From Streblospio benedicti (lineage: Eukaryota; Annelida; Polychaeta; Spionida; Spionidae): a DNA stretch of 64,000 nucleotides. A program made the position numbers and the translations under genes. Shown here one piece after another: positions 4,601 through 51,950 of this stretch (the first letter of the stretch is position 1; each line of letters begins with the position of its first letter). The notes beneath the pieces were generated by a model. The model made no database searches, had not been told where the DNA came from, and worked only from the letters and a program-made list of their open reading frames with translations. The stretch lies in NCBI GenBank assembly GCA_019095985.1, contig CM032660.1, forward strand, positions 33,597,556 to 33,661,555, in the 5' to 3' direction.

Positions 4601-6740
4601 CCCCGAGGAGTCTCTCTTGAAAAGAGTCATAGTCCTGTTGACTGGAGTAGGACCAGAAAGATTCCGCGCGGGAGATGATAGCATCAGATTCTTCACGGGA
4701 AAGGATTTCATTGTACGCATTCATCTGAAGTGAAATATAAAACGAAATGGTCACCATCAGTATTGAGTACGTAAAGTCACACTTATGCAAAATAAACACC
4801 CACCCATTTCAAGAGATATGCATGCATACATTTGCACATGCAAGATTTCATCTTTTACTACAAAGATTACAAACAAACAATTAAAATTATATATAGTTAC
4901 CAACACTACGTGCTTAAACGTGCAAAGTTTTTAAACAACATAAGTCAAAACTTAAATAATAACAAGATTGGAAATATATGTTTACCAAGTCAAACTTCAT
5001 TGTTTGAAAAATGATAAACTCCCTAAGAGGCTTACATCCAGGATGGAGCCAGGAGCGCTGGCTGTTGCCCCTCCTGAGGGGAGGTCGAGGCTGAGGGAGT
5101 CTCGAGAAGACGACTTGCTCAAGAAGGACGTGGTCATCTCTCCAACCGGAGACCCACGCGCCGTGGGGTTGGGTGAGATGGGGGGCCCGCCACCCAGGGC
5201 AGGCGAGCCACTACCCAGGAGAGAGGACACACCTGCAAGAGATTTCATTTACAGCACTCAAATCTTCTGAAGAATAGCTGACATCAAAGTTTACTTTGAG
5301 TTTAGAGCGTTTCTTAGTAAGGAAAAAGGAATGAGCAAGAAGTTGCAATGTTAAAACATTGCCTTTCACATTTTCATGTTATCTAATTTTGAAATTTTAT
5401 GCTAGGCAGTCAAGTGCCGTTTTAAAATGTCATATATTCATAGTGCAAGTAACGTCTCCCTGATAAAATCCTTTACCTTTATCACCATGCACACACTGTC
5501 TACCTATTGGGTCATATTTTACACATTTTTCTATGTTCATTTTAGAAGGAGTACTTTAACTTGTTCTTGTATTATAAAAAGGGTACTACCCACCTTCAAA
5601 AGAGGACACAGCCCTCATAGGGGACGAGCGGCAAGGCGATTCCTTCGGCGAGACATCGCGGGATGACGTCAGTACCGGCGACACGCTGGGAGAGCCACTC
5701 CCAGGGGAGGCTGGTGGCGTGTACCCTGGGAGCATGGGAGGGCCCTTCAAACACTTTTTTACAGAGTTCCTTAATTCCTCCTCATCAGTCAATGTGTACG
5801 TTAGTGATCTTTCTCGTACTGGTTCTTTATCTGACCACGCCACTGGGCTTGGTGACCTTTCTTCCTGACTAAGTGACCCTTGACCCGGTGATTTTTGACT
5901 TGGTGATCTATGAAGAACTATGGGGGATTTTTGCCTTGGTGTCTTGCGCCGTTTCGATCTTTGAAGAACTATTGATGTTTTTGGCCTTACTGACCTGAAA
6001 CCTTGTGATTCTTGATTTTGGCTGGGTGACATGCTCCTTTGTGAATCTTTATGTGACTCTTGCATCGGATAATGTTCGCTCTCTGGCAGCTGATCCAGTG
6101 ACTTTTGCTCTGGTGACCTTTGTTCTAATAACTTTTGCTCTGATGACCCTGCACTTAGCAAGGCAAAGGTTGGTGATCTTTTCGTTTGTGAACTTTGGCT
6201 TATAGTTTGCAATTCTTTACCTGGTGAACCATGATGTTGAGACGCACGCTTTGGTGACCCATGACTTTCCAGTTCATGTTCATCGTTTGTTAAGTCTTTG
6301 GCAACAGACTCCTCACTTGACGATGCTGTCAATTCAGACACTTGCACAGAACTATCGCCACTCTGTAGAGCTTCTAAGCTCTCTGTCTCTTTATTCTGCT
6401 CCTCTTCCTCATCCTGAACACTCAATGTCTCCATCGAAGAGATCATGGGTTCCGCCTCCTCATCTGATGAAACCTCATGCGCATCCTCTCCATTTTTGCC
6501 ATTTAGATGCCCATTGGGTGAAGCACCATGTCCATTTGGAGACAGCTGTCCTTCTGAGGATGATACTGATGAGGCGTCCTTGTTTGAAGTTGCAGCTTCT
6601 GGGGACTGCTTTCCTTCCGTGCTGCCAGCAGACATGGTGCGCTGTGCCCTCTCCATCTTTAGAGCTTCTGGAGATCTCGTTAGGGGAGAAGTGGTACCCG
6701 GGTCGTTTCCAGATTGCTCAGAAAGGGACTCCTTTTCCAT
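1634..6740 (-). CDS. Ser/Pro-rich nuclear-type protein with two PAH (Sin3-like) domains, six exons
   Basis: Six minus-strand exons join in frame: 6740-5594, 5232-5036, 4724-4403, 3279-3139, 2710-2510 and 1935-1634 (2310 nt, 769 aa plus stop), every junction GT-AG with matching phase. Residues 1-450 are low complexity: a Ser/Glu-rich acidic stretch, many SP pairs, and a basic patch RSKRRKTPRQK. Exon 3 (residues about 449-545) carries a PAH-like helix bundle ending YEYFISLYTDN, EFKRSIVILFNGN, LAERFNRIVP; exon 6 carries a second, FSTFNATLGDV followed by ILELLAGHEDLINEFMHKM. The LF.GN/LL.GH plus L...FN pattern is the hallmark of PAH domains, which in Sin3 and GON4L bind short amphipathic helices of transcription factors. 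No Sin3 HDAC-interaction domain or SANT domain is present. A nuclear co-regulator role is inferred. A 5'UTR acceptor (aaacag) lies just upstream of the ATG. Confidence 0.8.
2297..2455. repeat. Near-perfect 75-bp palindrome in the last intron of the PAH gene
   Basis: The left arm (2297-2370) and right arm (2383-2455) are inverted copies: caaaacaatgacaattct pairs with agaattgtcattgttttg, and gtccaaagtgtcctaaatgt pairs with acatttaggacactttgga. The loop is about a dozen bases. The outer edges TTATTTAA and TTAAATAA also pair. It looks like a foldback MITE; if transcribed with the host intron it would form a long hairpin. Confidence 0.75.
2755..3125 (-). mobile_element. tRNA-derived SINE interrupted by a minisatellite
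   Basis: On the minus strand, 3125-3045 contains a B-box-like ggtttgaattcgat followed by tctggtgatggttgttgagc, matching the body of the SINEs at 9842 and 8730-9010. After the minisatellite the SINE resumes at about 2838-2790 with caggtcattgggttg and atattgtgtg, again as in the 9842 copy. The element lies in the intron between PAH exons 4 and 5. Confidence 0.65.
2840..3033. repeat. 12/15-bp minisatellite
   Basis: About 14 tandem units of the form ttgtagtgacag(taa), alternating 12- and 15-base versions, with a few substitutions (for example ttgtattgacaa). Because the unit lengths are multiples of three, all six frames stay open, giving spurious Thr/Val- or Cys/Asp/Ser-repeat reading frames. 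It sits inside a SINE copy. Confidence 0.9.
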
Positions 6741-6850
6741 TTTGATCTAGAATACGCCTGTTTGTATTTTTTCTATAGATGCGACAATGACGTTTGTCTC
6801 CCTATAAGAAAAAATGCCACTGTCTTAACTTAACGTAATTAAGGTACTAA

Positions 6851-20258: not shown

Positions 20259-22494
20259 ATGGCATTATGACGGGTTGGTGTATGCTTGCTTGGTCGTCAA
20301 TGGTGAAAATGGCAATTTTGACATGTAACATGATGGATAATCTGGATTTTCTATCTTAAGGAACTATATTTTTACCAAGAGAATGCATAAGTCCCCAGTC
20401 TGCATTTCCTAAACAATATCTGGATTTACTGGAAACATTAAGCTGGTGAAGAATCACAGCATGAAAATATCACAAACTCAGAAATAAGATTTTGCATTAT
20501 ATTCGGCTTTTCAAATCTGGGTTCAGACAATAAAGGCATTTCCCCATAGGTTGGAACTCAAAAGAACTGACTATGGCAAAACTGCATAGCTTGGAAACAT
20601 TTTCCTTCACGAATCCTGACATCAATTTGAGAAATTGAAAAAATAATGGATTTTCCGAATATCTGACATATAATAAGGCAAGAGCTTATCATATATTGGC
20701 CTTCATTGGGAAACAAATAATATTTTTTCAAGATATCATATATTTTATTTCCAAATGTCCAACATTTGTATCTATCATTTAATGATCTTACAGAATTGAA
20801 TGCAGACATATGGTTCACCAGCAATAAAACTTTTCAATTCTTACAATTAAAACATTTAGACTTTTCACGTAATAGGATTTCGCACATCAGCACGGGCTTC
20901 TTTGCTGCTGTTCCTAATCTTCAGGAGCTTCATATTGACGACAATCATCTCACCAAATTAACAGCAGATATGTTCTTGTTCAATGGAAAATTGGTCGCAT
21001 TAGACAAATTAACTATTGCATTCATTCAAAACAATAATATTTCTTTCATTGACCAAGCTGTGTTTACAACACTGTTACCGTCGGTTACATACCTTAATCT
21101 GGCGTTCAATCATCTGTCAACTGTAGCATTGAAAATCAACACACGCTCAGAAATAGAACTTCATAATAACCACTTGGAACATATCAAAATTGAATTTGGT
21201 CTCAAGGAAAATAAAAAACGACTGGAGTACTTGGGTCAAGATTATTTAATAAAACACATGGATTTCAGCAACAATCTGCTTAAAAGACTTCCAGGAGAAA
21301 TGCAAGAAATCAAGATATATAAGAAATTTTTCCCTGCAAAAGCATATCTCCATGGCAATCCTTGGTACTGTGATTGTGGTATTCGCTGGATGAAAACTTG
21401 GATTCATCAAAACACAGATTCAGAGGAAAGGGATTTAATTACGTGCGATGGACCATTCTTCAACAAAGGTGAACTAATGGCTACCCTCGATAACTCCCGA
21501 TTTATATGTGATAGCACAATAATCGGACCAACATCAGCAGTGCTTTCAATTGTATTCTTGGTATTTCTGGGGGTTCTAACATATAAATGGCGCTATCGCT
21601 GGAAGTTCTGGCTCTACAACAAGTATGGGTTCCATCCATTTGACAAGGATGAATGTGAGAACGAAGACAAGAGATTCGACGTGTTCCTGTCCTACAGTAA
21701 CGAGGAGAGTGAGTTTGCACGAGAGCTGATGGCCGACCTGGGCCGGGCCGGCTTCTGTGTCTGCTGCCACGAACTCGACTTCCAGGTGAGAACAGCTTCG
21801 GTTTATAGTGTGCAATGTGAGAAAGTTGTATACCTTTCAATGACCTAAACGTCAGTTAATTATTGTATTTATTATTCAGTTGTCCACCATAGAACTCCCA
21901 CAAAGAATGTACCCAAATCTTAGATGACATTTGACACATGAAATGTATCTAAGGATTGGTGACTTTGACTCGAAGTTTTTAGAATTGCTGTAAGAATATA
22001 TCAATTCATGTTGATTTAAATTCTATAGATGTATTAGAAGCCAATTTACACCAAAATATTGTTAGGAAAACAAAGTACAGTTCTTCTGTCCTCTGCTTTC
22101 AGGCTGGAACCTGCATCGGTGAGAACTTGGAGCGAGCGGTGCACTACAGCAAGAGGACGTTATGCATCGTGTCACGAGCGTTCATGCAGAGCACGTTCTG
22201 CATGCAGGAGTTTCCTGACGGCGCGATCCTTTGACTTCTCAACTCCGCAGGAACCGGCTGATCGTGGTGGTGCTGTACGAAGATGTGCCTGAGCATGAGC
22301 TCCACGAGGAGATCCGCCTGTACATCAGCAGCTTCACCTACCTGAGGGAGGACGCCGCCTTCTTCATGGCACGTCTCATGTACGCGTGCTGCCCCAGGTC
22401 AGGATCGGCGACCTGGATGACGACACACAGGCCGCTACTCAGTGACCAGCGGCTTGAACGCTATGGGGCAAACAGACAGATTCAAAGAGTGTAG
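20259..22494 (+). pseudogene. TLR-A: decayed class I Toll-like receptor
   Basis: An old start (ATG GCA TTA TGA at 20259) aligns with the signal peptides of TLR-C and TLR-D but stops at codon 4, and 20300-20750 is decayed LRR sequence. From 20766 to 21785 the frame is open for 340 codons: about six class I LRRs (for example LYLSFNDLTEL), an LRRCT (NPWYCDCGIRWMKTWI), a membrane helix (about TSAVLSIVFLVFLGVLTYKW) and the first half of the TIR (FDVFLSYSNEESEF to CCHELDFQ), then a GTGAGA donor. Exon 2 begins at 22103 after ctttcag and encodes AGTCIGENLERAVHYSKR, but several small insertions relative to TLR-B (around 22211, 22245, 22270 and 22386) destroy the frame. Its intron and exon 2 are close to TLR-B, although its ectodomain is class I. 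It cannot make a full receptor. Confidence 0.8.
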
Positions 22495-23920
22495 GTGGCA
22501 ACATTTTATGTTGTAAATTAGATTTTGTCCAGCTGTTATTTCATCAAAATGGAACAAGTTCTTGAGGCTTTCATTTCAGTAGATATAAGATATCTGTGGT
22601 AGATGTACATTACTTTTACTCGACTATGGAGAACTATTTTTGTTTGGATATTTAGTTCATAAAACAGCTATATAAACATATTGGCAGAACTATATTACTA
22701 ATTGTAAATGTTGCTTTTCTGCAAGTTTATGTTTTTGTGCACATTTTGTCCTAATAGATGAGGGCAATGTGCATATGTATTTAACTAATTTGCACATGTG
22801 CACACAATTTATTCAGTGAATGTACTAGATGTTTTCAAAGAAAAGGTCAGAGTAAAGTCCATTGTGATGCTTCTACAGACAAAATTATTACATCATAGTT
22901 TACAATTTATACTTAAGTAGTTTATAAAAATGTGTATATGTTTCATTAAGTACATATAGTTGAATTGAATGAATATCTGTACAAAAATGAACTTTCCTCT
23001 AATCGTGTACGTGCGAACAGGCATGTTCAGTGTGGTGTGATAGCTTTTAAATTTGTTCAAATGTAAATATATTGCTTAATTCATTGGGATGCTATATTTA
23101 AAAAGTTTGAAAAATTACAAATCTCCATTATGGAAAATGATGGAAACTATCATTCATTGCATTATATATTTTATGTGTTGATGTTGTCTTATTCAATNNN
23201 NNNNNNNNNNNNNNNNNNNNNNNNNNNNNNNNNNNNNNNNNNNNNNNNNNNNNNNNNNNNNNNNNNNNNNNNNNNNNNNNNNNNNNNNNNNNNNNNNCAT
23301 ATGTATAAAATATAATTCAATGACATGTTAAAATATAATTGAGACTACTTATGAATATTAATATTACTTATAATATAATAGACAAAAAATACAAAGAGAA
23401 AACAAAACTAACTTTCTGAATCATCCCACACATACAATTTCTGTGCTTTTCATATGCCCATGCTATCCAAAAGTAAACAGCTGACACCCCGTAACAATTG
23501 ACTGTCACCTTCGCCAAACAGTCTCGGCTGGGTGAGTCATGCGGTTGCCTATAACATTGGCCTTCCCTAAAGAAAGTATGGTGCATTTTCGCTTTTAATT
23601 TGAAATGCTGTGCTCTGTCTAGTGTGTCAATATACAATTGGATACGTACTGCACTTCTTGTTATAAAAGTATTGGATGATCACGTGACCATATATTGTCT
23701 TTGTTGGAATAATTACTTAATCCAAAGGAAAATAACTTGTTATCGTCACATGCCAGGGTAATGTAACCTAGAAGAATACTAACTCTCTCCTATGAATCAT
23801 TTATAGATCATTGTGTACAGTACATTATTTATCAGTTTAATGGATTCATTTCATGCTTCTGCTTGGATTGGTCAATAATATGTGAGAAATTCGGCACAAC
23901 GTAACTTCATGTAGTAAATG
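22495..23920. other. 3' flank of TLR-A, an assembly gap and spacer
   Basis: 22495 to about 23004 follows the TLR-B 3' flank closely. At about 23004-23030 the sequence switches to TLR-C-type sequence beginning in its last codons (tggtgtgatagctttt), which continues to the gap. 23198-23297 is exactly 100 N, a placeholder of unknown true size. No gene was seen in the remainder. Confidence 0.7.
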
Positions 23921-24019: not shown

Positions 24020-26373
24020 ATGGCGGATGTGTGTTTAAGCTTTGGCATAATGATTAACTGCACTTGCAATATTATCGAACAATATGGCTCTTATGAATTT
24101 CAAACTTTTGGTTGTACCAAGATGCAAAATGACATGCTACTTGAAAGACTGGCAAGCACGTTTGCGGCGAATGCTACCCAAGAGAATTGGGACATATTTA
24201 TGGAAGGCTCAAATATGACAACACTTCCTACTCTACCAAGTATTTTACCCATCAATGTTATGGGTATGAGATATAACCATATAAAAGAATTAACAGAACC
24301 TACCCATGAGTTTCTGAAACTGGAGGCATTATTAATGAACGGCAATCAGATCGCTTCCATTGACCGATCATTCTTGTGTGCATTTCCAAATATTGAAACT
24401 TTGGACCTGTCAAACAACAGTCTGAGACACTTAGCTAAAATGTCTATTTGCACAGACGGGCGGCATATAATGCTCAACGACATGGAGTCTATGGGCTTGG
24501 ATGACAACCAAATTTCATTTATTGAGGACGGCTTCTTTTCAGCAATTCCAAACATTGTACAGATTTCTATGGCTGGTAATCATCTTACGATTTTGAAACA
24601 CAATATTTTCCTTTCTTCCTGTAACTTTCTGAGCTTTAAACAAAATAGGATATCTTACATTGATGCAGGATTCCTCTCTGTCTTTCCCAATCTTCAAGAG
24701 TTGAATCTTAACCACAATCGATTACGTCGACTTGATACTAGTTATCACAAGAATCAAACTATTACCCTCTCACATTTTTACTCATTAGATGTTGGCTGGA
24801 ATCGTATTTCGTATATTAGTCATGGATTCTTCTCCTTATTTCCAAAACTCACACGGCTGTATATTTCTCACAATTATATCCAATACATTAAAGCTGATAT
24901 GTTTTCCACGCTTGGTGAAACGGTCCATTTGGATGTTGTGAACCTAGCACACAACGAGATAGCTCACATTGATGATGAGGTTTTCACTTCAATCATGCCT
25001 CATCTAAGGCAACTTGATTTGTCATTCAACCGTCTATCTCATCTAGCCATTAAGATTAACATGGCCTCAGTTATATCTCTTCAAAATAACAGTCTCCACA
25101 CTATTGATATTGAACATCAGGAATCCGAAACCCATCCATTAATGGACCATTTCAATATAAGTAACAATCGGCTAAGGAGCCTTCCACAGCAATGGCAAAT
25201 GATTAGAGTCGACACAGATTCCTTATATTTGCATGGAAACCCGTGGTATTGTGATTGTGATCTTCGATGGATGAAATACTGGATTCTTGAGAGTGCTGAT
25301 TCCAATGAAATTAAGTCCACGATATGTGATGGTCCTATATATAACAGAGGTTCTATGTTGGTTGCATTAGGAGATTCTAGTTTCATATGTGATAGGACAA
25401 TAGTCGGACCAACCTCAGCAGTACTTGTCATTGCAATCTTGGTATTCCTCGGAGTTCTCACATATAAGTGGCGCTATCAGTGGAAGTTCTGGCTCTACAA
25501 CAAGTACGGGTTCCATCCATTTGACAAGGACGAATGTGAGAACGAAGACAAGAGATTCGACGTGTTCCTGTCCTACAGTAACAAGGAGAGTGAGTTTGCA
25601 CGAGAGCTGATGGCCGACCTGGGCCGGGCCGGCTTCTGTGTCTGCTGCCACGAACTCGACTTCCAGGTCAGAACAGCTTTGGTTTATAGTGTGCAATGTG
25701 AGAAAGTTATATACCTTTCATGAGCTAAACAGCAGTTAATTATTGTATTTATTATTCAGTTGCCCACCATAAAATTCCCACAAAGAATGTACCCAAATCT
25801 TTGATGAAATTTGACATGTGAAATGTATGTAAGGATTGGTGACTTCGACTCGAAGTTTTTAGAATTGGTGTAAGAATATCTCAATTCATGTTGATTTAAA
25901 TTCTATAGATGTATTAGAAGAAAATTCACACCAAAATATTGTTAGGAAGACCAAAAAGTACAGTTTTTCTGTCCTCTCCTTTCATGCAGGCTGGAACCTG
26001 CATTGGTGAGAACGTGGAGCGAGCGGTGCACTACAGCAAGAGGACGTTATGCATCGTGTCACGAGCGTTCATGCAGAGCACGTTCTGCATGCAGGAGTTT
26101 GTGACGGCGCGATCCTTTGACTTCTCAACTCGCAGGAACCGGCTGATCGTGGTGCTGTACGAAGATGTGCCTGAGCATGAGCTCCACGAGGAGATCCGCC
26201 TGTACATCCGCAGCTTCACCTACTTGAGGAGGGACGCCGCCTTCTTCATGGCACGTCTCATGTACGTGCTGCCCCAGGTCAGGATCGGAGACCTGGACGA
26301 CGAGCACAGGCCGCTACTCAATGACCAGCGGCTTGAACGCTACGGGGCAAACAGACAGATTCAAAGAGTATAG
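24020..26373 (+). CDS. TLR-B: intact class II Toll-like receptor, 676 aa, two exons
   Basis: Exon 1 is 24020-25666 (549 codons), exon 2 is 25990-26373 (127 codons plus stop), joined in phase 0 across GTCAGA...TGCAG. The N-terminus MADVCLSFGIMINCTC is a short hydrophobic leader; an N-cap (CNII, GCTKMQND) follows, then about a dozen LRRs (residues about 60-400), an LRRCT (NPWYCDCDLRWMKYWI to SFICDR, about 405-460), a membrane helix (about 462-481) and the TIR from residue 512: box 1 FDVFLSYS, box 2 CCHELDFQAGTCIG, and FFMARLMYVLP near box 3. Family members sense microbial or endogenous ligands and recruit MyD88-type adaptors. The BB-loop proline of classical TLRs is Ala here (DFQAG). Single LRRCT makes it a vertebrate-like (single cysteine cluster) architecture. 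It is the only locus in the array that reads through cleanly. Confidence 0.92.
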
Positions 26374-27769: not shown

Positions 27770-30223
27770 ATGGCATTTCTTGGAATATGCTTTGGCTTGG
27801 TCTTCAATTGCACATGCAATTTTGGTATTTTATATTGGATTACTTATATTCTGAATATCAGTGACTGCTCCCAGTCTGAGAATACTGCCATACTGGAAGC
27901 ATTATCGGATAGATACCCTGAGAACATGACAGATATAGGATATTCATGAGTGGTTCAGCAATAGAGGCATTCCCGGAAGAATTAAGACATCTGCCTATTG
28001 AGCATTTGACTTTTACAAATACAAGCATAACACAGTTGGATAGTCTGGATTTTCGGCTAGAAAAACTAAAAAATTTGGAGTTTGCATCTAACCGCATTCA
28101 TCGCATATCTCCTGAATTTCTTTATGCACTTCCAAATCTCTTATATCTGGGATTAAAGAATAATAATTTGCATGGCTTGGAAATATTTTCTAACAAAAAT
28201 CACAGCCTCAAATTATCACATTTAGAAACACTTAATCTAGAATACAATGAGATAGGACACATTGATTACGGATTATTCTCTGTATTTCCCAATCTTACTC
28301 GTCTTTCTCTACCAAACAACAATCTTACCTGCCTTGGAACTAACATGTCGTTTTACAGAGATGCAGTACCAAAATTTGAAATATTGCAATATTTAAGTTT
28401 ACAAAGGAATAAAATATCACGCATTGGACGAGGTTTTCTCACTATGTTTCCAAATCTCAGAAGTTTGAATCTATCATCTAACGATCTTACAGAATTGAAT
28501 GCAGACATTTGGTCCACCAGCAATACAACTATTGAATTTTTACAATTAAAACATTTAGATTTTGGAAATAATCAGATTTCGCACATAAGCAAAGGGTTCT
28601 TTGCTGGTTTTCCTAATCTTCTGAACATTTATATTAAAAACAATCATCTAAGTAAATTAACAGCAGATATCTTCTTGTCCAATGGAAGATTTGTTCCATT
28701 AGAACAATTATGGTATGCAGACCTTTCTTACAATAATATTTCTTACATTGAGCCAGTTGTTTTTATAACACTGTTACCGGCAGTTACATATCTTGATCTG
28801 TCGCTCAATGATCTTTCCACTGTGGTATTGAAAATCAATAAAGGATCAGACATACGCCTCCGAAATAACCATTTGGAACATATCAAAATTGAATTTGGTC
28901 TCAAGAAAAATATCTATCCAATAGAAGAAATAGATTTGGGTCACAACTTATTAAAACGACTTCCTGAGGAAATGAAACAAATCAAAGTAACTTCTGAAAG
29001 AGCGTATCTCGATGGCAATCCCTGGTACTGTGATTGTGACAGTCTCTGGATGAAAACTTGGGTTCAACAAAATTCAAATTTGAAGGAAATAATCAAATGT
29101 GATGGTCCATTCTTCAACAAAGGTGAAGTAATGGCTACACTCGATAACTCCAGATTCATATGTGATCGAACAATAATTTGGTCCACTGCTGGAGCACTTT
29201 CTATGGTATTTTTCATTTTCCTTGGAATACTGACATACAAGTGGCGCTATCGCTGGAAGTTCTGGCTCTACAACAAGTACGGGTTCCACCCATTTGACAA
29301 GGATGAATGTGAGAACGAAGACAAGAGATTCGACGTGTTCCTGTCCTACAGTAACGAGGAGAGTGAGTTTGCACGAGAGCTGATGGCCGACCTGGGCCGG
29401 GCCGGCTTCTGTGTCTGCTGCCACGAACTCGACTTCCGGGTGAGAACAGCTTTGGTTTATAGTATATCAAAATGAGATAGTTATATTCTTTTATGTTTTA
29501 TCTCTATGTTGTAAGGGATTGATTTCCCCAAAGTAACTACTAGAAAGCTAATCAGTTATGCAATATCTAAGAGCTAATGAGCTATGTATAGCGTCAAAGT
29601 AAATCTTTTGAATCATATGTAAATTATCTAGAAGTTAGAGATTTCAGTGAAGTACTACATAACAGTTCAATATATTTGACATGTTTAAATTATAGATTTG
29701 CTTGAAGCATATATATGTATCATTTCATGCCCAATAATGAATTATCATCAGAGATGTTTTTGAAGAACCTTTACATTCAAACCATTTACATTTGAGTTTT
29801 ATCCAGACTGAATACTATAGTGCGATCCTTTCCTTTCAGGCTGGAACCTCCATCGGTGAGAACGTGGAGCGAGCGGTGCACTACAGCAAGAGGACATTGT
29901 GCATCGTGTCGCGAGCGTTCATGCAGAGCAGGTGCTGCATGCAGGAGTTTGTGACAGCTCGCTCCTTCGACTTCACCCACCGGAAGAACCGGCTGATCAT
30001 GGTGCTGTACGAGGACGTACCTCAGCAAGAGCTCCACGAGGAGATCCGCCTCTACATGAGCAGCTTCACCTACCTGAGGAGGGACGCCGCCTTCTTCATG
30101 GCACGTCTCATGTACGTGCTGCCCCAGGTCAGGATCGGAGACCTGGATGACGAGCACAGGCCGCTGCTCAGTGACCAGCGGCGGGAGGGATACGGGGCAG
30201 ATAGGCACGCCCAGGTGGTGTGA
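27770..30223 (+). CDS. TLR-C: class I Toll-like receptor with one frame break near the N-terminus
   Basis: ATG at 27770 begins MAFLGICFGLVFNCTCNF, a leader matching TLR-D, and continues 59 codons to TGA at 27947. Relative to TLR-D there is a net 7-base loss just before, so the rest of the receptor continues in the next frame from 27946. Exon 1 then runs to 29439 (498 codons): about 13 LRRs, LRRCT NPWYCDCDSLWMKTWV, membrane helix (AGALSMVFFIFLGILTYKW) and FDVFLSYSNEESEF to CCHELDFR. Exon 2 is 29840-30223 after ttcag, encoding AGTSIGENVERAVHYSKR to RHAQVV. The residue before the junction is Arg, where the other loci have Gln. Without the leader the open part would not be secreted, so this allele is probably non-functional unless the break is an assembly error. 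Confidence 0.8.
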
Positions 30224-36971: not shown

Positions 36972-39425
36972 CTATCCTTCCCGTCGCTGGTCACTGAGCA
37001 GCGGCCTGAGCTCGTCATCCAGGTCTCCGATCCTGACCTGGGGCAGCACGTACATGAGACGTGCCATGAAGAAGGCGGCGTCCCTCCTCAGGTAGGTGAA
37101 GCTGCGGATGTACAGGCGGATCTCCTCGTGGAGCTCATGCTCAGGCACATCTTCATATAGCACCACGATCAGCCGGTTCCTGCGAGTCGAGAAGTCGAAG
37201 GAGCGTGCCGTCACAAACTCCTGCATGCAGAACGTGCTCTGCATGAACGCTCGCGACACGATGCACAATGTCCTCTTGCTGTAGTGCACCGCTCGCTCCA
37301 CGTTCTCACCAATGCAGGTTCCTGCCTGAAAAGAAAGGACAACAGTACTGTTCTGGCTGAAGAACATTCACACCTTCGGATAGATGTATTCTTTTTAAAC
37401 ATGCCTATTTCTTAAATCAACATGAATTGATGTAATCTTTCAGCAATTTCAAGTGGCATACAATGTATACAAGCAGGTCCATGAACCCTATAACTTTTAC
37501 AAGACAAATGTCATCTAAGATTGAAATTATTTTGAATCCATCTGTAAACGTTAATAATTTACACAAATTGATATATGATTCTGATAACAAACATTATTAA
37601 CAGAGACATAATATGATAAACAAAACTATGTTTTTGTCTTATCGATACACTATAAACCAAAGCTGTTCTAACCTGGAAGTCGAGTTCGTGGCAGCAGACA
37701 CAGAAGCCGGCCCTGCCCAGGTCGGCCATCAGCTCTTGTGCAAACTCACTCTCCTCGTTACTGTAGGACAGGAACACGTCGAATCTCTTGTCTTCATTCT
37801 CACATTCGTCTTTGTCAAATGGATGGAACCCGTACTTGTTGTAGAGCCAGAACTTCCAGAGATAGCGCCATTTGTATGTGAGAACCCCCAGAAATACCAA
37901 GAATGCAATTGAAAGCACTGCTGATGTTGGTCCGATTATTGTGCTATCACATATAAATCTGGAGTTATCGAGGGTAGCCATTAGTTCACCTTTGTTGAAA
38001 GAACGGACCATCGCACGTAATTAAATCCCTTTCTTCTGAATCTGTGTTTTGATGAATCCAAGTTTTCATCCAGCGAATACCACAATCACAGTACCAAGGA
38101 TTGCCATGGAGATATGCTTTTGCAGGGAAATATTTCATATATATCTTGATTTCTTGCAATTCCTCAGGAAGTCTTTGTAACAGATTGTTGCTGATATCCA
38201 TGTGTTTTATTAAATAATCTTGGCCAAAGTACTCCAGTCGTTTTTTATTTTCCATTAGACCAAATTCAATTTTGAAATGTTCTAAGTGGTTATTTTGAAG
38301 GTATATTTCTGAGCGTGTGTTGATTTTCAATGTTACAGTTGACAGATGATTGAACGCCAGAGTAAGGGATGTAACTGACGGTAACAGGACGGTAAATACA
38401 GCTGGGTCAATAAAGGAAATATTATTGTCTGAAATATATACAGTAGTTAGTTTTCTTAAAGTGACTAAATTTCCATTTGATAAGAACATATTCGTTGTTA
38501 ATTTGGTCAGATGATTGTCATGAATGAAAAGCTTCTGAAGATTTGGAAACGCAGCAAAGAACCCCCTTCCTATGTGCGAAATGTGATTACCTCCAAGAAA
38601 TAAACATTCTAATTGTAAGAATTCAACAGTTGTATTGCTGGTGAACCATATATCTGCATTCAATTCAGTAAGATCGTTATATGATAGATCCAAATATCTG
38701 AGACTTGGAAACATAGTGAAAAAGCCTCGTCCAATGTGTGATATATTGTTATTTGCGAAACGTATATCTCTCAATATGTCATGTCGGGGTAATTCATGTC
38801 TGTAACGGGACATATTGGTGCCCAGAAATGTAAGATCATTGCCTTCCATGTACAGATTTTGAAGATTGGGAAAAGCAGAAAAGAATCTGTAATCAATGTG
38901 CGCAATGCCATTATGGTTGAAATTGAGTGTTTCTAAATTTAATAATTTAAGGCCATGAGTATTGCGAGAAATTGTTTCCAAGCTATGCAAGTTATTTTCT
39001 GATAGATCCAAATATTTCAGATTTGGAAATGCAGAAAGAAATCCTGGATATATCTGATGAATACTATTTGAACGTAACGTCATTTCAGTGAGTCTTTCTA
39101 GCTGAAAATCTAGACCATCCAACTGTGTTATCCCTGTCTTTTTAAAAGACAAGTAACTAATAGGCAAATTTCTTAACTCGGAGGGGAATGTCGCTATTCC
39201 GGAACCACTCATAACTAACCAGATGTATGTGTCTGTCATGTTCATAGCGTATCTATCCGACAATGCTTCCAATATGGCGGTATTCTCAGTCTCAGCGCAG
39301 CCTCCGGTTGTTAGAAAGTAAACAGGATCATTATATTCACCAAACTCGCACGTGCAGTTGAAGAACAAGCCAAAGCATACACTTAAAAGTGCCATTCTAA
39401 TTAATTCACAAATGGAAAAGTCCAA
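36972..39425 (-). CDS. TLR-D: class I Toll-like receptor with one frame break before the membrane segment
   Basis: Exon 1 runs 39425-37673 and exon 2 37325-36972, joined in phase 0 (GTTAGA donor, ttttcag acceptor). Without its single break it would be about 701 residues. The leader (MDFSICELIRMALLSVCFGLFFNCTC) may really start at the inner Met, matching TLR-C. About 13 LRRs follow, then LRRCT NPWYCDCGIRWMKTWI. In the LRRCT, at about 37998-38000, one extra base (ttctttc where TLR-A has ttcttc) shifts the frame, giving a stop after FFQQR; the next frame resumes with FNKGELMATLDNSRFIC, membrane helix and TIR. Exon 2 ends DQRREG with TAG where TLR-C has Tyr, while the old tail (GANRHIQVV-like) is still readable after it. 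As drawn it would be a soluble LRR ectodomain. Confidence 0.82.
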
Positions 39426-44826: not shown

Positions 44827-46521
44827 ACCCCCAATTTCATATAGCCGATGCTAGCTCCAGATGCTCCAAAACACCTCAGATATGTCATTTTGTGTGGATC
44901 GTGTGTGATCTGGCCTCAAATGTGGAGTGATTGGGCTGATTTGGCAGACAATGGGCACTATTGGCCGGGTCTGAGCTGGTTTGTGTTTGTTAGCTTATGT
45001 CCTCCGGTGATGATTTATTGATTTGGTAATTGGCACTAAGTCATACCATCTGCGTGCTTTGGGGGCTGTCTGAGGGCTTTCTTTAGCATTTGAAACATCT
45101 TGGTGTCTTTCTGCTTAACTGTAGCCTCGTCTGGTGCTTTGGGAAGATGTATCGTCAACAGATGACACCGTAAGATCAGCCACTACATTTATATTCTGAA
45201 GCAATTGACGCATGAAATAAAAGCATCAGTTCTAACAGTTCAGTTGTTCACGATGATCCATGATTAATGCTCTCTTCCTGGATGATACAATTCTACCTGG
45301 TTCTGGCCCAAACATGTAGAAGTGATATTAACCTTTTTCGGCCTGTGGGATCCCGTTTTGGATTATTGAGTTGTTGATCGGGATCAACGTTTTAGCTTTT
45401 CTGGGTGGTCTGGAAGGCTAACCTGTTCATTGTAAGGTCTTTCCAATGAACAGTCAGCTTGCTGACTATTTTCATACAGACGTCCCCGTCTTATGGTGTG
45501 CTGTTTCCGAATTGTCACACGAGCCTGCTTTCTCATGAGCCTACCTACACAATATGCACATGCGGCACTACAAAAAGGCTGAAAAATTTTTTTTTCATTG
45601 CTGTTTGCCTCTCTGAAGGGGTAACCTCAAACACGTTTTCACGATGATTAGGCAATGAGTAGTAGGTTTAACAATAGCAGCCGTTGCACTTCTCCTTGCT
45701 TCAGAAAAGAAGGGAGATTGAAACAGAATGCTGAAGAAGATGAAGATGGTGATGCTTCAGAGGGCTCTGAAGCTCCTCAAATGGATGCTGGTCACCAGCA
45801 ACTTCCATATAGTCAGACGAGACTGTGGATGTGGCTTTGAATCAGTCATGAATTTCGTCTGTTGTAAAGTCATTTCACCAACCTCAAACTGAGAATAGAC
45901 GACGCAGATGGTTCCTGTAATTTGATGAGTATGACGCCTGTCCTGTTTGAATAGATTTTGCACAGAATAGAGCCACGGACACCAAAGCGAAACACCGGGT
46001 GGCGGAAACGTATTACTCGGGGGCGCTAGCTGATCGTCACCCTGTCATGCGGCAGCAGGTGATAAATACCCCACGTTGCCCTATGATGCCAGGTTAGTCG
46101 TAATCACGGCGTTCGTAGTCCAATTTTTCAGAGCGATCCGTAAAGGGGTTGGTGCCGAACTGATGCACCTACCCCAGGGTGTAAATGGTTGGCGAGAAGT
46201 GGCTGCAGAATTCCAAAGAAGACTACGGCTCTAGATGGCGAACGGATTCGTATTAGGAAGCCACGCAACTCAGGAAACATTTACTACAACTACCATTTTC
46301 TCATTGGTGTTATTGGCCCTCGTTGAAATTCATGTATGCTGGTGTGGGCGGTGATGGCCACCACCCCGAATTTCAGGTAGTCAATAGTAGTGAGTTTACT
46401 CTTCGTCTTCATCTTGCTACGTAATAAATATTGATCCATTTAATCCAATCGACCCTGACATGACAAATATGACGTCTTTTGGAGCATCTGGAGCTAGCAT
46501 TGACTATGTAAAATTGGGGGT
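44827..46521 (+). mobile_element. PIF/Harbinger-like DNA transposon, decayed, 1.7 kb
   Basis: Inverted ends of about 45 bp: the left end acccccaatttcatatagcc (44827) is matched by the complement of 46476-46521, both containing the word gctagctccagatgctccaa. Inside, on the plus strand, 46180-46214 reads VNGWREVAAEF and 46234-46320 reads DGERIRIRKPRNSG followed by YYNY. These match the Harbinger DDE nuclease region (W..IA.EF, then DG...I..P..SGS.YYNYK). Stops and shifted frames break it, for example between those two segments and after LIGVIGPR. A second open frame (45655-45840), Glu/Asp-rich, could be the remains of the accessory DNA-binding protein. The 3-bp target duplication is not obvious. 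Confidence 0.65.
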
Positions 46522-47341: not shown

Positions 47342-50300
47342 TTATCCCTCCCTGCGTGGGTCACTGAGCCGCGGTCTGTGCTCGTCATCCAGGTCGCCGA
47401 TCCTGACCTGGGGCAGCACGTACATGAGACGTGCCATGAAGAAGGCGGCGTCCCTCCTCAGGTAGGTGAAGCTGCTCATGTAGAAGCGGATCTCCTCATT
47501 CAGCTCGTGCCAAAGCACGTCCTCGTACAGCACCATGATCAGCCGGTTCTTCCGGTGGGTGAAGTCGAAGGAGCGAGCTGTCACAAACTCCTGCATGCAG
47601 AACGTGCTCTGCATGAACGCTCGCGACACAATGCACAATGTCCTCTTGCTGTAGTGCACCGCTCGCTCCACGTTCTCACCAATGCAGGTTCCTGCCTGAA
47701 AAGAAAGGACACCAATACAGTAATTTGTCTTGAAAACATTCATACCTCGGATATATGAATTCTTCTAAACATCTTTACAATTTAAATCACCATGAATCAA
47801 TATATACTTCCAGCATACTTACAACTGTAAGTCATTTATTGACAGAGTAGTTCAATTAACACTATAGCTTCCACATGTCAAATGTCATCAAATGTTTAGA
47901 TGAACTTTAAAGTTTGTACAAACTGAATGCTGCTTGTGATTACGAACATGATTAACTGAGCTTTAACAAATAAAACACTGTAACATCTTGCATTTTAAAC
48001 CAAAGCTGTTCTCACCTGGAAGTCGAGTTCGTGGCAGCAGACACAGAAGCCGGCCCGGCCCAGGTCGGCCATCAGCTCTTGTGCAAACTCACTCTCCTCG
48101 TTACTGTAGGACAGGAACACGTCGAATCTCTTGTCTTCGTTCTCACATTCGTCTTTGTCAAAAGGGTGGAAGCCGTACTTGTTGTAAAGCCAGAACTTCC
48201 ACCGATACCGCCATTTATATGTCAGAACTCCAAGGAATACCAACATAGCAATGGAGAGCACTGCCGATGTTGGTCCGATTATTGTCCTATCACATATGAA
48301 ACTGGAATCTCCTAGTGCGACTACCATAGAACCTCTGTTATATATAGGACCATCACATATCGTGGACTTAATTTCATTGGAGTCTGCACTCTCAAGAATC
48401 CAAAATTTCATCCATCGAAGATCGCAATCACAATACCACGGGTTTCCATGCAAATATAAGGAGTCTGTGTTGACTCTAATCATTTGCCATTGCTCTGAAA
48501 GACTCCTTAGCTTGTTATTGCTTACATCGAAAATGTTCATTGTTGGATACTTAATGGTTTTATGATTTTCAAGGGGCTCACCTTGTTTGAAAGATGTAGC
48601 AATATCAATAGTGTGGATGCTGTTGTTTTGAAGAGAAAGAACTGAGACCATATTAGTCTTAATGGCTAGATGAGATAGACGGTTGAATGACAAATCAAGT
48701 TGCTTTAGATGAGGCATGATTGAAGTGAAAACCTCATCATCGATGTGAGTTATCTCGTTGTGTGTAAGATTTACAACATCCAAAGGGTATACGACGATTT
48801 CACCAAACGTGTGAAACATATCAGCTCTGATGTATTGAATATTATTGTGAGACATATACAGTCGTGTTAGTTTTGGAAATGAGGAAAAGAATCCATCCTC
48901 AATAGATGAAATTTGGTTGTCATCCAAGTTCATAAAGGTCAAGTTGTTGAGCATTATATGCCGGCCGTCTCTGCAAATAGACACTTTACCTAAGTGTCTC
49001 AGACTGTTGTTTGACAGGTCCAAAGTTTCAATGTTTGGAAATGCGCACAAGAATGATCGGTCAATGGAAGCGATCTGATTGTCTTGCATACGTAAAGCCT
49101 GTATTTTTAGAAACTCATGGGTAGGTTCCGATAATTCTTGTATATTGGTATATCTCATATGTATTGCAGTAAAGGGTAAAATACTTGGTAGAGTAGGAAG
49201 TGCTGTCATATGGGATTCTTCCATGAGCAGTACACAATCCTCTTGGTTAACATTCGTCGCAAATATGTTTGTCAGTCTTTCAAGTAGCCATTCATTCTGC
49301 ATCATGGTACAACCAACAGTCTCAAGTTTATAACCTGTAAATTGTTCGATGACATTACTATTTTGTTCGATAATATCATTAGTGCAATCAATACTAATAG
49401 TGTGGAGACTGTTTTGAAGAGAAATAACTGAGACCATATTAATCTTAATGGATAGATAGGACAGATTGTTGTGTGATAAATCCAGTTGCTTTAGATGAGG
49501 CATGATTGAAGTGAAAACCACATCATCGATGTGAACTATCTCGTTGTGTGTAAGATTCACAACATCCAAATTGACCATTTCACCAAACGTGGAAAACATA
49601 TCAGCGCTGATGTAATCAATATCATTGTGCGACATATTCAGCCATTTGAGGTTTGGAAATGAGGAAAAGAAGCCATGACCAATGTACGAAATACGATTAA
49701 AGGCAACATCTAATGAGTAAAGATGTGAGAGGGTAATAGTTTGGTTGTAATTTGTGTGAGCTGTGGTGTTGTTACTGGAAGACAGGAAAATACTGTTATT
49801 CAAACTCATCAGGTGATTATGAGCCATTGAAATCTTTTCAATGTTGGGAGTTGCTGCAAAAAGGCCGTCCTCAATAAATGAAATTTTAAACCCAAGTTTT
49901 TTTAANNNNNNNNNNNNNNNNNNNNNNNNNNNNNNNNNNNNNNNNNNNNNNNNNNNNNNNNNNNNNNNNNNNNNNNNNNNNNNNNNNNNNNNNNNNNNNN
50001 NNNNNTTTAAAAAAAAGGGACCTTTTAAAAGGGGAAAACCACCTTTTTTTTTTCTTTTAAAAATTTTTTTGGTGAAAAGTTTTTTAATTTTTCTTCCGTT
50101 TGGGTGGGGGTAAAGGGGATTTAAAAAACAACTTTTTTTTTTTTCCAAAGGGAAAAAAAAACCGAAAATTTTTTTTAAAACCAAACGTAAACAAAATAGT
50201 TTTTTTAAAAAAAATTTTTTAAAATTGTGAAAAAAAAAAATCTTTAATTTGGGGATTGGAAAAAAAGCCTCCTCAATAAAATGAAATTTTGGTTGTCATC

Positions 50301-51749
50301 CGTTCATGGGGTCAAGTTGTTGAGCATATATGCCGGGCTGCTCCTGCAACAGAATACTTTACCTAAATGTCTCAGACTGTTGTTTGACAGGTCCAAAGTT
50401 TCAATGTTTGGAAATGCGCACAAGAATGATCGGTCAATAGAAGTGATCTGATTGTCTTGCATAGACAATACCTGCAGTTTCAGAAACTCATGTGTAGGTT
50501 CCGATAATTCTTGTATATGGTTATATCTCATACTTATTGCAGTAAAGGGTAAAGTATTTGGTAAAGTAGGAAGTGTTGTCATATTGGAGTCTTCCATAAA
50601 GAGTACACAATTCTCCTGGGTACAGCCATCAGCAGCAAACTTGTCTCCTAGTCTTTTAAGTAGCATGTCATTCTGCATTTTGGTACACCCGACAGTCTCA
50701 AGTTTATAACCTGTAATTTGTTCAATAATGTTATTAGTATATTCGATAATATCACAAGTGTGATCAATACGAAGAGTGTGGATACTGTTGTTTTGAAGAG
50801 AAATAACTGAGACCAAATTAATCGAAACAGCTAGATAAGACAGACGGTTGTATGACAAATCCAGTTTCTTTAGATGAGGCATGATTGAAGTGAAAACCAC
50901 ATCATCAATGTGAGTTATCTCGTTGTGTGCTAGGTTCACAACATCCAAATTGACCATTTCACCAAACGTGGAAAACATATCAGCGCTGATGTAATCAATA
51001 TCATTGTGCGACATATTCAGCCATTTGAGGTTTGGAAATGAGGAAAAGAAGCCATGACCAATGTACGAAATACGATTAAAGGCAACATCTAATGAGTTAA
51101 GATGTGAGAGGGTAATAGTTTGGTTGTAATTTGTGTAAGCTGTGGTGATGTAACTGGAAGAAAGGAAAATACGCTTATCCAAAGTTGTAAGATAATTACA
51201 AGCCATAGAAATCTTTTCAATGTTGGGACTTGCTGAAAAGAAGCCGTCCTCAATAGATGAAATTTGGTTGGCATCCAAGTTCATAAAGGTCAAGTTGTTG
51301 AGCATTATATGCCGGTATTCTGTGCAAATAGACATTTTATCTAAATGTTTCAGATTGTTGAATGACAAGTCCAGAATTTCAATATTTGGAAATGCGCACA
51401 AGAATGATCGGTCAATAGAAGTGATCTGATTACCGTACAGATGTAATGTCTCTAGTTTCAGAAACTCATGGGTAGGTTCTGTTAATTCTTGTAAATGGTT
51501 AAACCTCATAGTTATTGCAGTAAGGGGTAAAATACTTGGTAAAGTATGAAGTGTTACCACGTTGGATGCATACATTGCCAGTTCACAATTCTGTTGGGAA
51601 GCATTTGCCGTAAACGTGTCTGCCCATCTTTCAAGTAGCATCACATTCTGCATCTTTGTACAACCGTCAGTATAAAGTGCACAATAGGTAAGTGGATTTT
51701 CACAATGGCAACTCAACAGTATGCTAAGGCTTAAGCACACATCCGCCAT
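47342..51749 (-). CDS. TLR-E: giant class II Toll-like receptor with at least three tandem ectodomain modules (interrupted by an assembly gap)
   Basis: Exon 1 runs 51749-48016 and exon 2 47695-47342 (117 codons plus stop), joined in phase 0 (GTGAGA donor, ttttcag acceptor). The start MADVCLSLSILLSCHC matches TLR-B. Module 1 (51749 to about 50766) has the N-cap GCTKMQNVMLLERW and eight or so LRRs. Then the cap returns without any LRRCT: module 2 begins at about 50765 (GYKLETVGCTKMQND), is broken by corrupt sequence and 100 N at 49906-50005, and resumes; module 3 begins at about 49392 (GYKLETVGCTMMQNE) and ends in the only LRRCT (NPWYCDCDLRWMKFWI), the membrane helix and the TIR (FDVFLSYSNEESEF, CCHELDFQ). 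Exon 2 ends DPRREG with a stop where TLR-C has Tyr. Apart from the gap zone each side reads through openly, so the gene may be functional. The frame across the gap cannot be judged. Confidence 0.75.
49890..50300. other. Assembly gap with corrupted flanks
   Basis: 49906-50005 is exactly 100 N. On both sides, mainly 50006-50300, the sequence is full of expanded homopolymers (ttttaaaaaaaaggg, aaaaaaaaaa), yet still tracks the LRR module: complement words resemble gatgacaaccaaatttc and 'cctcaatagatgaaattt' found elsewhere. It is best read as a low-quality read end, not biology. The open frame through it should not be used. Confidence 0.85.
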
Positions 51750-51950
51750 GTTGCATAGGCAAGTTTTTCTATTTCAATATAATGTATGAACAGACACAGT
51801 GAATGATCCTGTTGAACCGTAAACTTAATCCACTAGATTGCTGTCCATCACATTTCATGAAGTTAGTGGTGCCGAATTTCTCACAACAGACCAATCCGAG
51901 CATAATAATGTATCAAACGAAAGCATGAAATGAATCCATTATCCTGATAA
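51750..51950 (-). promoter_or_regulatory. Upstream block of TLR-E conserved with TLR-B
   Basis: Minus-strand sequence before the ATG shares several blocks with 23830-24019 (tggacagcaatctagtgg, attcggcacc, aatggattcatttcatgct). This marks B and E as sister genes at their 5' ends even though they lie in opposite orientation 25 kb apart. Confidence 0.4.

Follow-up and report, generated by a model that had tools for sequence, protein, structure and literature searches.

The TLR gene and its neighbours

The window, that is, the whole stretch of DNA analysed here, comprises 64,000 nucleotides of the annelid Streblospio benedicti (GenBank assembly GCA_019095985.1, contig CM032660.1, positions 33,597,556 to 33,661,555 of the forward strand), and all positions given below are positions within it. 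On its minus strand, from an ATG at 51749 to a stop codon at 47342, is found a Toll-like receptor (TLR) gene, referred to here as the 51749 gene. In order, this gene consists of a signal peptide, modules 1 to 3, an LRRCT-like segment, a membrane helix, and a TIR which is split by one intron (Table 1). Here the term 'module' is used to describe an N-terminal cap along with those LRRs which follow it. Two open reading frames cover most of the gene. The first (50304-51773) includes the start codon as well as all of module 1 and the opening portion of module 2. The second (47995-50295) begins with unreadable sequence and an assembly gap, and goes on to include what remains of module 2, then module 3, the LRRCT-like cluster, the helix, and the TIR's first half. 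The predicted product would be about 1,230 amino acids in length if the gap hides nothing, with its ectodomain displaying a total of approximately 29 LRRs across the three modules.

Table 1. Features of the 51749 gene and other TLR genes of the cluster, in window positions
Feature	Positions	Strand	Basis or remark
Start codon and putative signal peptide (MADVCLSLSILLSCH)	51705..51749	-	hydrophobic stretch
Module 1: N-cap, 10 LRRs, and linker, 975 nt	50691..51665	-	gap-free ORF, LRR Pfam, AlphaFold
Linker, module 1 to 2 (HTCDIIEYTNNIIEQITGYKLETV), without LRRCT	50691..50762	-	gap-free, alignment
Module 2: cap and LRRs, broken by assembly gap and low-quality contig ends	49315..50690	-	
100-N gap and unreadable contig ends (not biology)	49885..50305	-	
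Linker, module 2 to 3 (DCTNDIIEQNSNVIEQFTGYKLETV), without LRRCT	49315..49389	-	gap-free, alignment
Module 3: cap and about 9 LRRs	48445..49314	-	
LRRCT-like C-terminal cysteine cluster, NPWYCDC...C...C	48277..48444	-	sequence pattern
Transmembrane helix	48217..48276	-	hydrophobic stretch GPTSAVLSIAMLVFLGVLTY, then KWRYRWK
Juxtamembrane region and first TIR part, end of exon 1	48016..48216	-	
Intron, phase 0, GT...AG, 320 nt	47696..48015	-	
Exon 2: rest of TIR and C-terminus, stop 47344-47342	47342..47695	-	
Gene D	20721-22383	+	cluster TLR
Gene B	24020-26277	+	cluster TLR, single module
Gene E	27770-30127	+	cluster TLR
Gene C	39395-37038	-	cluster TLR

The domains expected of a TLR are present. 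Its extracellular LRRs match Pfam LRR_8 (E 2.7e-40 and 1.9e-49), with TLR3 and TLR8 among their PDB matches. A single membrane helix, called by reading the sequence without a dedicated predictor, lies between the ectodomain and the TIR. The cytoplasmic TIR, once its exons are joined, matches Pfam TIR_2 (2.5e-16) and TIR (2.7e-15), and matches as well the solved TIRs of TLR1/2/6 and MyD88 in the PDB. The LRRCT-like cluster matches Pfam LRRCT_2 weakly (E 0.024, below the cut-off), although its NPWYCDC...C...C pattern is the usual one, and the cap gives no Pfam LRRNT match. When contigs of prokaryote genomes were scanned using the TIR no relatives were returned, as expected of an animal gene.

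Five TLR genes in all make up the cluster, and in every one of them the TIR intron is phase 0 and found at the same position. First TIR exons elsewhere in the cluster display 87-98% protein identity to that of the 51749 gene. LRR regions of its distant members, by contrast, are only about 30% identical, and TIR dN is far below dS. The start of the signal peptide matches that of gene B, both in protein and in 5' flank, the flanks being 79% identical over 278 nt, and the 51749 gene and gene B thus are probable sister paralogues. Apparent frameshifts or truncation are seen in gene C (near 37990), gene D (at its 5' end, 20721, and in exon 2, 22206-22246), and gene E (near 27930), which may represent either pseudogenes or sequencing errors. 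The TIR introns of genes B (25667-25989) and D (21786-22102) are 93% identical versus 68-75% for all other pairs, a likeness which is read here as a probable sign that the 3' part was recently converted or duplicated.

Repeated modules and the assembly gap

An earlier note on this DNA, made from the sequence alone, proposed that the whole cap-plus-LRR module is tandemly repeated at least three times. That such a repeat exists is confirmed. The cap motif recurs at 51665 (GCTKMQNV), 50690 (GCTKMQND), and 49314 (GCTMMQNE), each time followed by the same LRRs in the same order, and it is only after the last module that an LRRCT, membrane helix, and TIR are found. Direct repeats of 120-300 nt, with 74-94% nucleotide identity, recur among the modules. 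A tblastn search of the whole window using modules 1 and 3 finds three copies here and one at 24110, i.e., in gene B, along with sequence elsewhere that is only about 30% identical. Gene B indeed possesses one cap and one LRR block, as had also been claimed.

The modules are joined cap to LRR, with modules 1 and 2, and likewise 2 and 3, each fused within one open frame, just as previously described. In these readable junction frames there is neither an LRRCT, a stop codon, a TIR, nor an obvious signal peptide. As both junctions sit in gap-free open frames, this cap-to-LRR fusion is independent of the gap. The module length of about 980 nt which had been put forward holds for module 1 (975 nt), but the starts of modules 2 and 3 are 1376 nt apart. 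That spacing is inflated because of a gap, plus approximately 300 nt of low-quality sequence, inside of module 2. The number of modules similarly is three, or more, i.e., three caps are found, and the exact count depends on this gap, which splits module 2.

The gap itself, which the earlier note did not mention, is a run of 100 Ns at 49906-50005. It is flanked by homopolymer-rich, low-quality sequence to its left (about 50305-50006) and by about 20 nt of the same to its right. These homopolymer-rich, unreadable flanks resemble draft contig ends, and a second 100-N gap is found in the window at 23198-23297. The parts of module 2 which can be read are 50690-50307 and 49884-49315, and given the position of the gap the continuity between them can only be presumed. 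The left readable part ends with LNNLT and the right begins with ISFIEDG, module 1 having 8 residues between the equivalent points. Furthermore, about 45 nt in the tail of the left contig can be aligned with the beginning of the right one (raw score 63, with 0 of 500 run-preserving shuffles doing as well), beyond which the tail is unreadable. Given homopolymer compression this match to the right contig becomes marginal (30 versus a shuffle maximum of 29). The match fits what would be expected of contig ends overlapping inside of one module, though it is not proof of that. The overlap also singles out no particular copy, since module 1 (63) and gene B (61) score nearly the same against the tail as the right contig does (63). 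A further module at this point, or the joining of two unrelated loci, may thus be conceivable.

What, then, does the locus represent? It is probable, in our estimation, that this is one functional TLR gene of the single-cysteine-cluster (scc) type, within exon 1 of which a cap-plus-LRR block was copied in frame, and which would be expressed as a single transcript that passes through the gap. A different and rather unlikely perspective is that two multi-module genes meet at the gap, with the 3' end of one and the 5' end of the other having been lost there. The gap, after all, is of unknown true size, the unreadable contig ends are found exactly there, and tandem paralogues can be misordered in draft scaffolds. 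The two halves, however, share a strand, their readable ends come together at one and the same point within the module, and the left tail carries about 45 nt of the stretch which comes next. Module 2 also would come to about 325 amino acids, like module 1, if no sequence is missing. Even were two genes to be involved, each contig would still have a cap that is fused directly behind an LRR module.

Divergence, selection, and origin of the modules

Between modules, dS ranges from 0.14 to 0.39 and dN/dS from 0.45 to 0.77, and every indel has a length divisible by three. Were the modules to drift neutrally at these divergences, 6.6-13.2 stop codons would be expected within their 2.8 kb of coding sequence, versus none which are seen, though this is a rough estimate in which full neutrality is assumed and conversion is left out of account. 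The last LRR together with the LRRCT is 87.5% identical to that of gene B, and the membrane helix along with the juxtamembrane region and the first part of the TIR is 94-98% identical to those of three paralogues and 87% to that of the fourth. Purifying selection on the TIR is strong, with exon 1 of the TIR displaying a dN of 0.015 and a dS of 0.43 relative to gene C.

These observations bear on the idea of a decaying pseudogene within a fast-turnover cluster. Genes C, D, and E, three of the five in the cluster, do look frameshifted or truncated, but outside of the gap region both exons of the 51749 gene are free of stops and frameshifts, its splice sites are intact, and its TIR dN/dS is low, such that decay is very unlikely. 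Least credible of all is an assembly artefact, i.e., haplotypes or paralogues that were collapsed and misjoined, with one module per real gene, for although the region is of draft quality and a stretch of about 150 nt is identical in modules 1 and 2, the junctions lie in contiguous sequence, their linkers are homologous yet about 20% diverged and one in-frame codon deletion apart, and at synonymous sites the modules differ by considerably more than alleles ordinarily do.

That identity of modules 1 and 2 indicates recent conversion or duplication. The cap half of module 2, on the other hand, is closer to module 3 and gene B than it is to module 1, and module 3 is without about two central LRRs that are present in module 1. 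The array, to judge from the alignments, is a mosaic.

With a single gene carrying an in-frame duplication as the preferred reading, an origin may be suggested. The internal linkers (HTCDIIEYTNNIIEQITGYKLETVGC and DCTNDIIEQNSNVIEQFTGYKLETVGC) look much like the N-terminus of the mature gene B product (CTCNIIEQYGSYEFQTFGC), which suggests duplication in frame and also that the copied unit probably starts just after the signal peptide and stops before the last LRR. The linkers are less hydrophobic than the cluster's three signal peptides, with best 10-residue means of 0.44 and 1.11 versus 1.95-2.53. The ancestor probably was a short, single-module TLR resembling the neighbour at 24020, in which tandem copying took in a stretch that runs from just past the signal-peptide region up to the second-last LRR. 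The inner copies would be without an LRRCT because that stretch ended at the second-last LRR. Unequal crossing-over, and later conversion between modules, would then have shaped the copies.

The predicted ectodomain and known TLRs

The resulting architecture would be cap-LRR-cap-LRR-cap-LRR-LRRCT-TM-TIR. The product would be a type-I receptor with its approximately 29 LRRs found in three capped segments, these joined by linkers of about 25 residues, and it would signal via its one TIR, probably upon ligand-induced dimerisation as in other TLRs. AlphaFold models (mean pLDDT 74.5 and 69.9; six sequences per alignment) give module 1 ten LRR strands, and place a strand-helix-strand (beta-alpha-beta) cap both at the N-terminus and at each of the two internal joins, with short linker stretches below a pLDDT of 50. 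The double horseshoe that had been suggested for this ectodomain is one possibility only, as a cap fold is predicted at each junction but with linkers of such low confidence. The 'very long' ectodomain also suggested is long only in a relative sense, as a large vertebrate TLR has an LRR count that is close to 29. Foldseek matches many LRR proteins, including one module's length on LRRTM2 (284 columns, 3.6 A). Superpositions of whole models are poor (rmsd >10 A), and these matches do not settle module geometry.

TLR ectodomains are sorted by the position of their cysteine caps. Within its readable sequence, i.e., with the gap in module 2 unread, the 51749 gene holds one NPWYCDC cluster, whose Pfam score is below the cut-off and which is found beside the membrane, the place where scc/V-type TLRs have exactly one LRRCT. 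Mcc/P-type (multiple-cysteine-cluster) TLRs, by contrast, possess two or more LRRCTs (PMC8609888). Like the 51749 gene, they have more than one LRR segment in their ectodomains, but these are split by an LRRCT or LRRCT-LRRNT, whereas a search for LRRCTs here finds one copy, with none at either of the two fully read internal junctions. Repeated caps without an internal LRRCT would fall between two accepted classes.

Among particular receptors, an amphioxus BlTLR (PMC6224433) shares with the 51749 gene an LRR ectodomain, one membrane-adjacent LRRCT, one TM, and one TIR, but has one LRRNT, 21 LRRs, and one LRRCT rather than a cap and LRR block three times over. Oyster TLR classes include forms both with and without an internal LRRCT-LRRNT, and no repeated-cap form lacking an internal LRRCT is among those described in the available portion of that account (PMC4346834). 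Mollusc Tolls with tandem TIR domains (PMC4929906) are likewise Toll-family receptors altered by tandem duplication of a domain, though with the TIR being duplicated instead of the ectodomain. Within the window itself, gene B has the same cap, LRR order, LRRCT, TM, TIR, and intron position, but one module rather than three. A search of the open-licence literature found no paper describing the same architecture. If the single-gene reading holds, duplication of entire capped LRR modules within one exon would be a way for TLRs to diversify, and it raises the question of whether an N-terminal cap in mid-ectodomain serves as a hinge or instead as part of a separate head. A more speculative, indeed doubtful extension is that of a multi-headed TLR, in which the capped modules would fold and bind independently as heads in their own right, rendering the receptor bi- or trivalent, with the number of modules variable via unequal crossing-over. 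Were that so, then the ectodomain would be an expandable array feeding one TIR, and would vary between individuals or species.

Two features outside of the TLR genes may also be mentioned. At 5589-6746 on the minus strand is a 386-codon open frame that is rich in Ser, Pro, and Glu and has no Pfam match. Lastly, an inverted repeat (44827-44888 and 46460-46521), with arms of 62 nt that are 87% complementary and 1571 nt between them, is possibly a mobile element.
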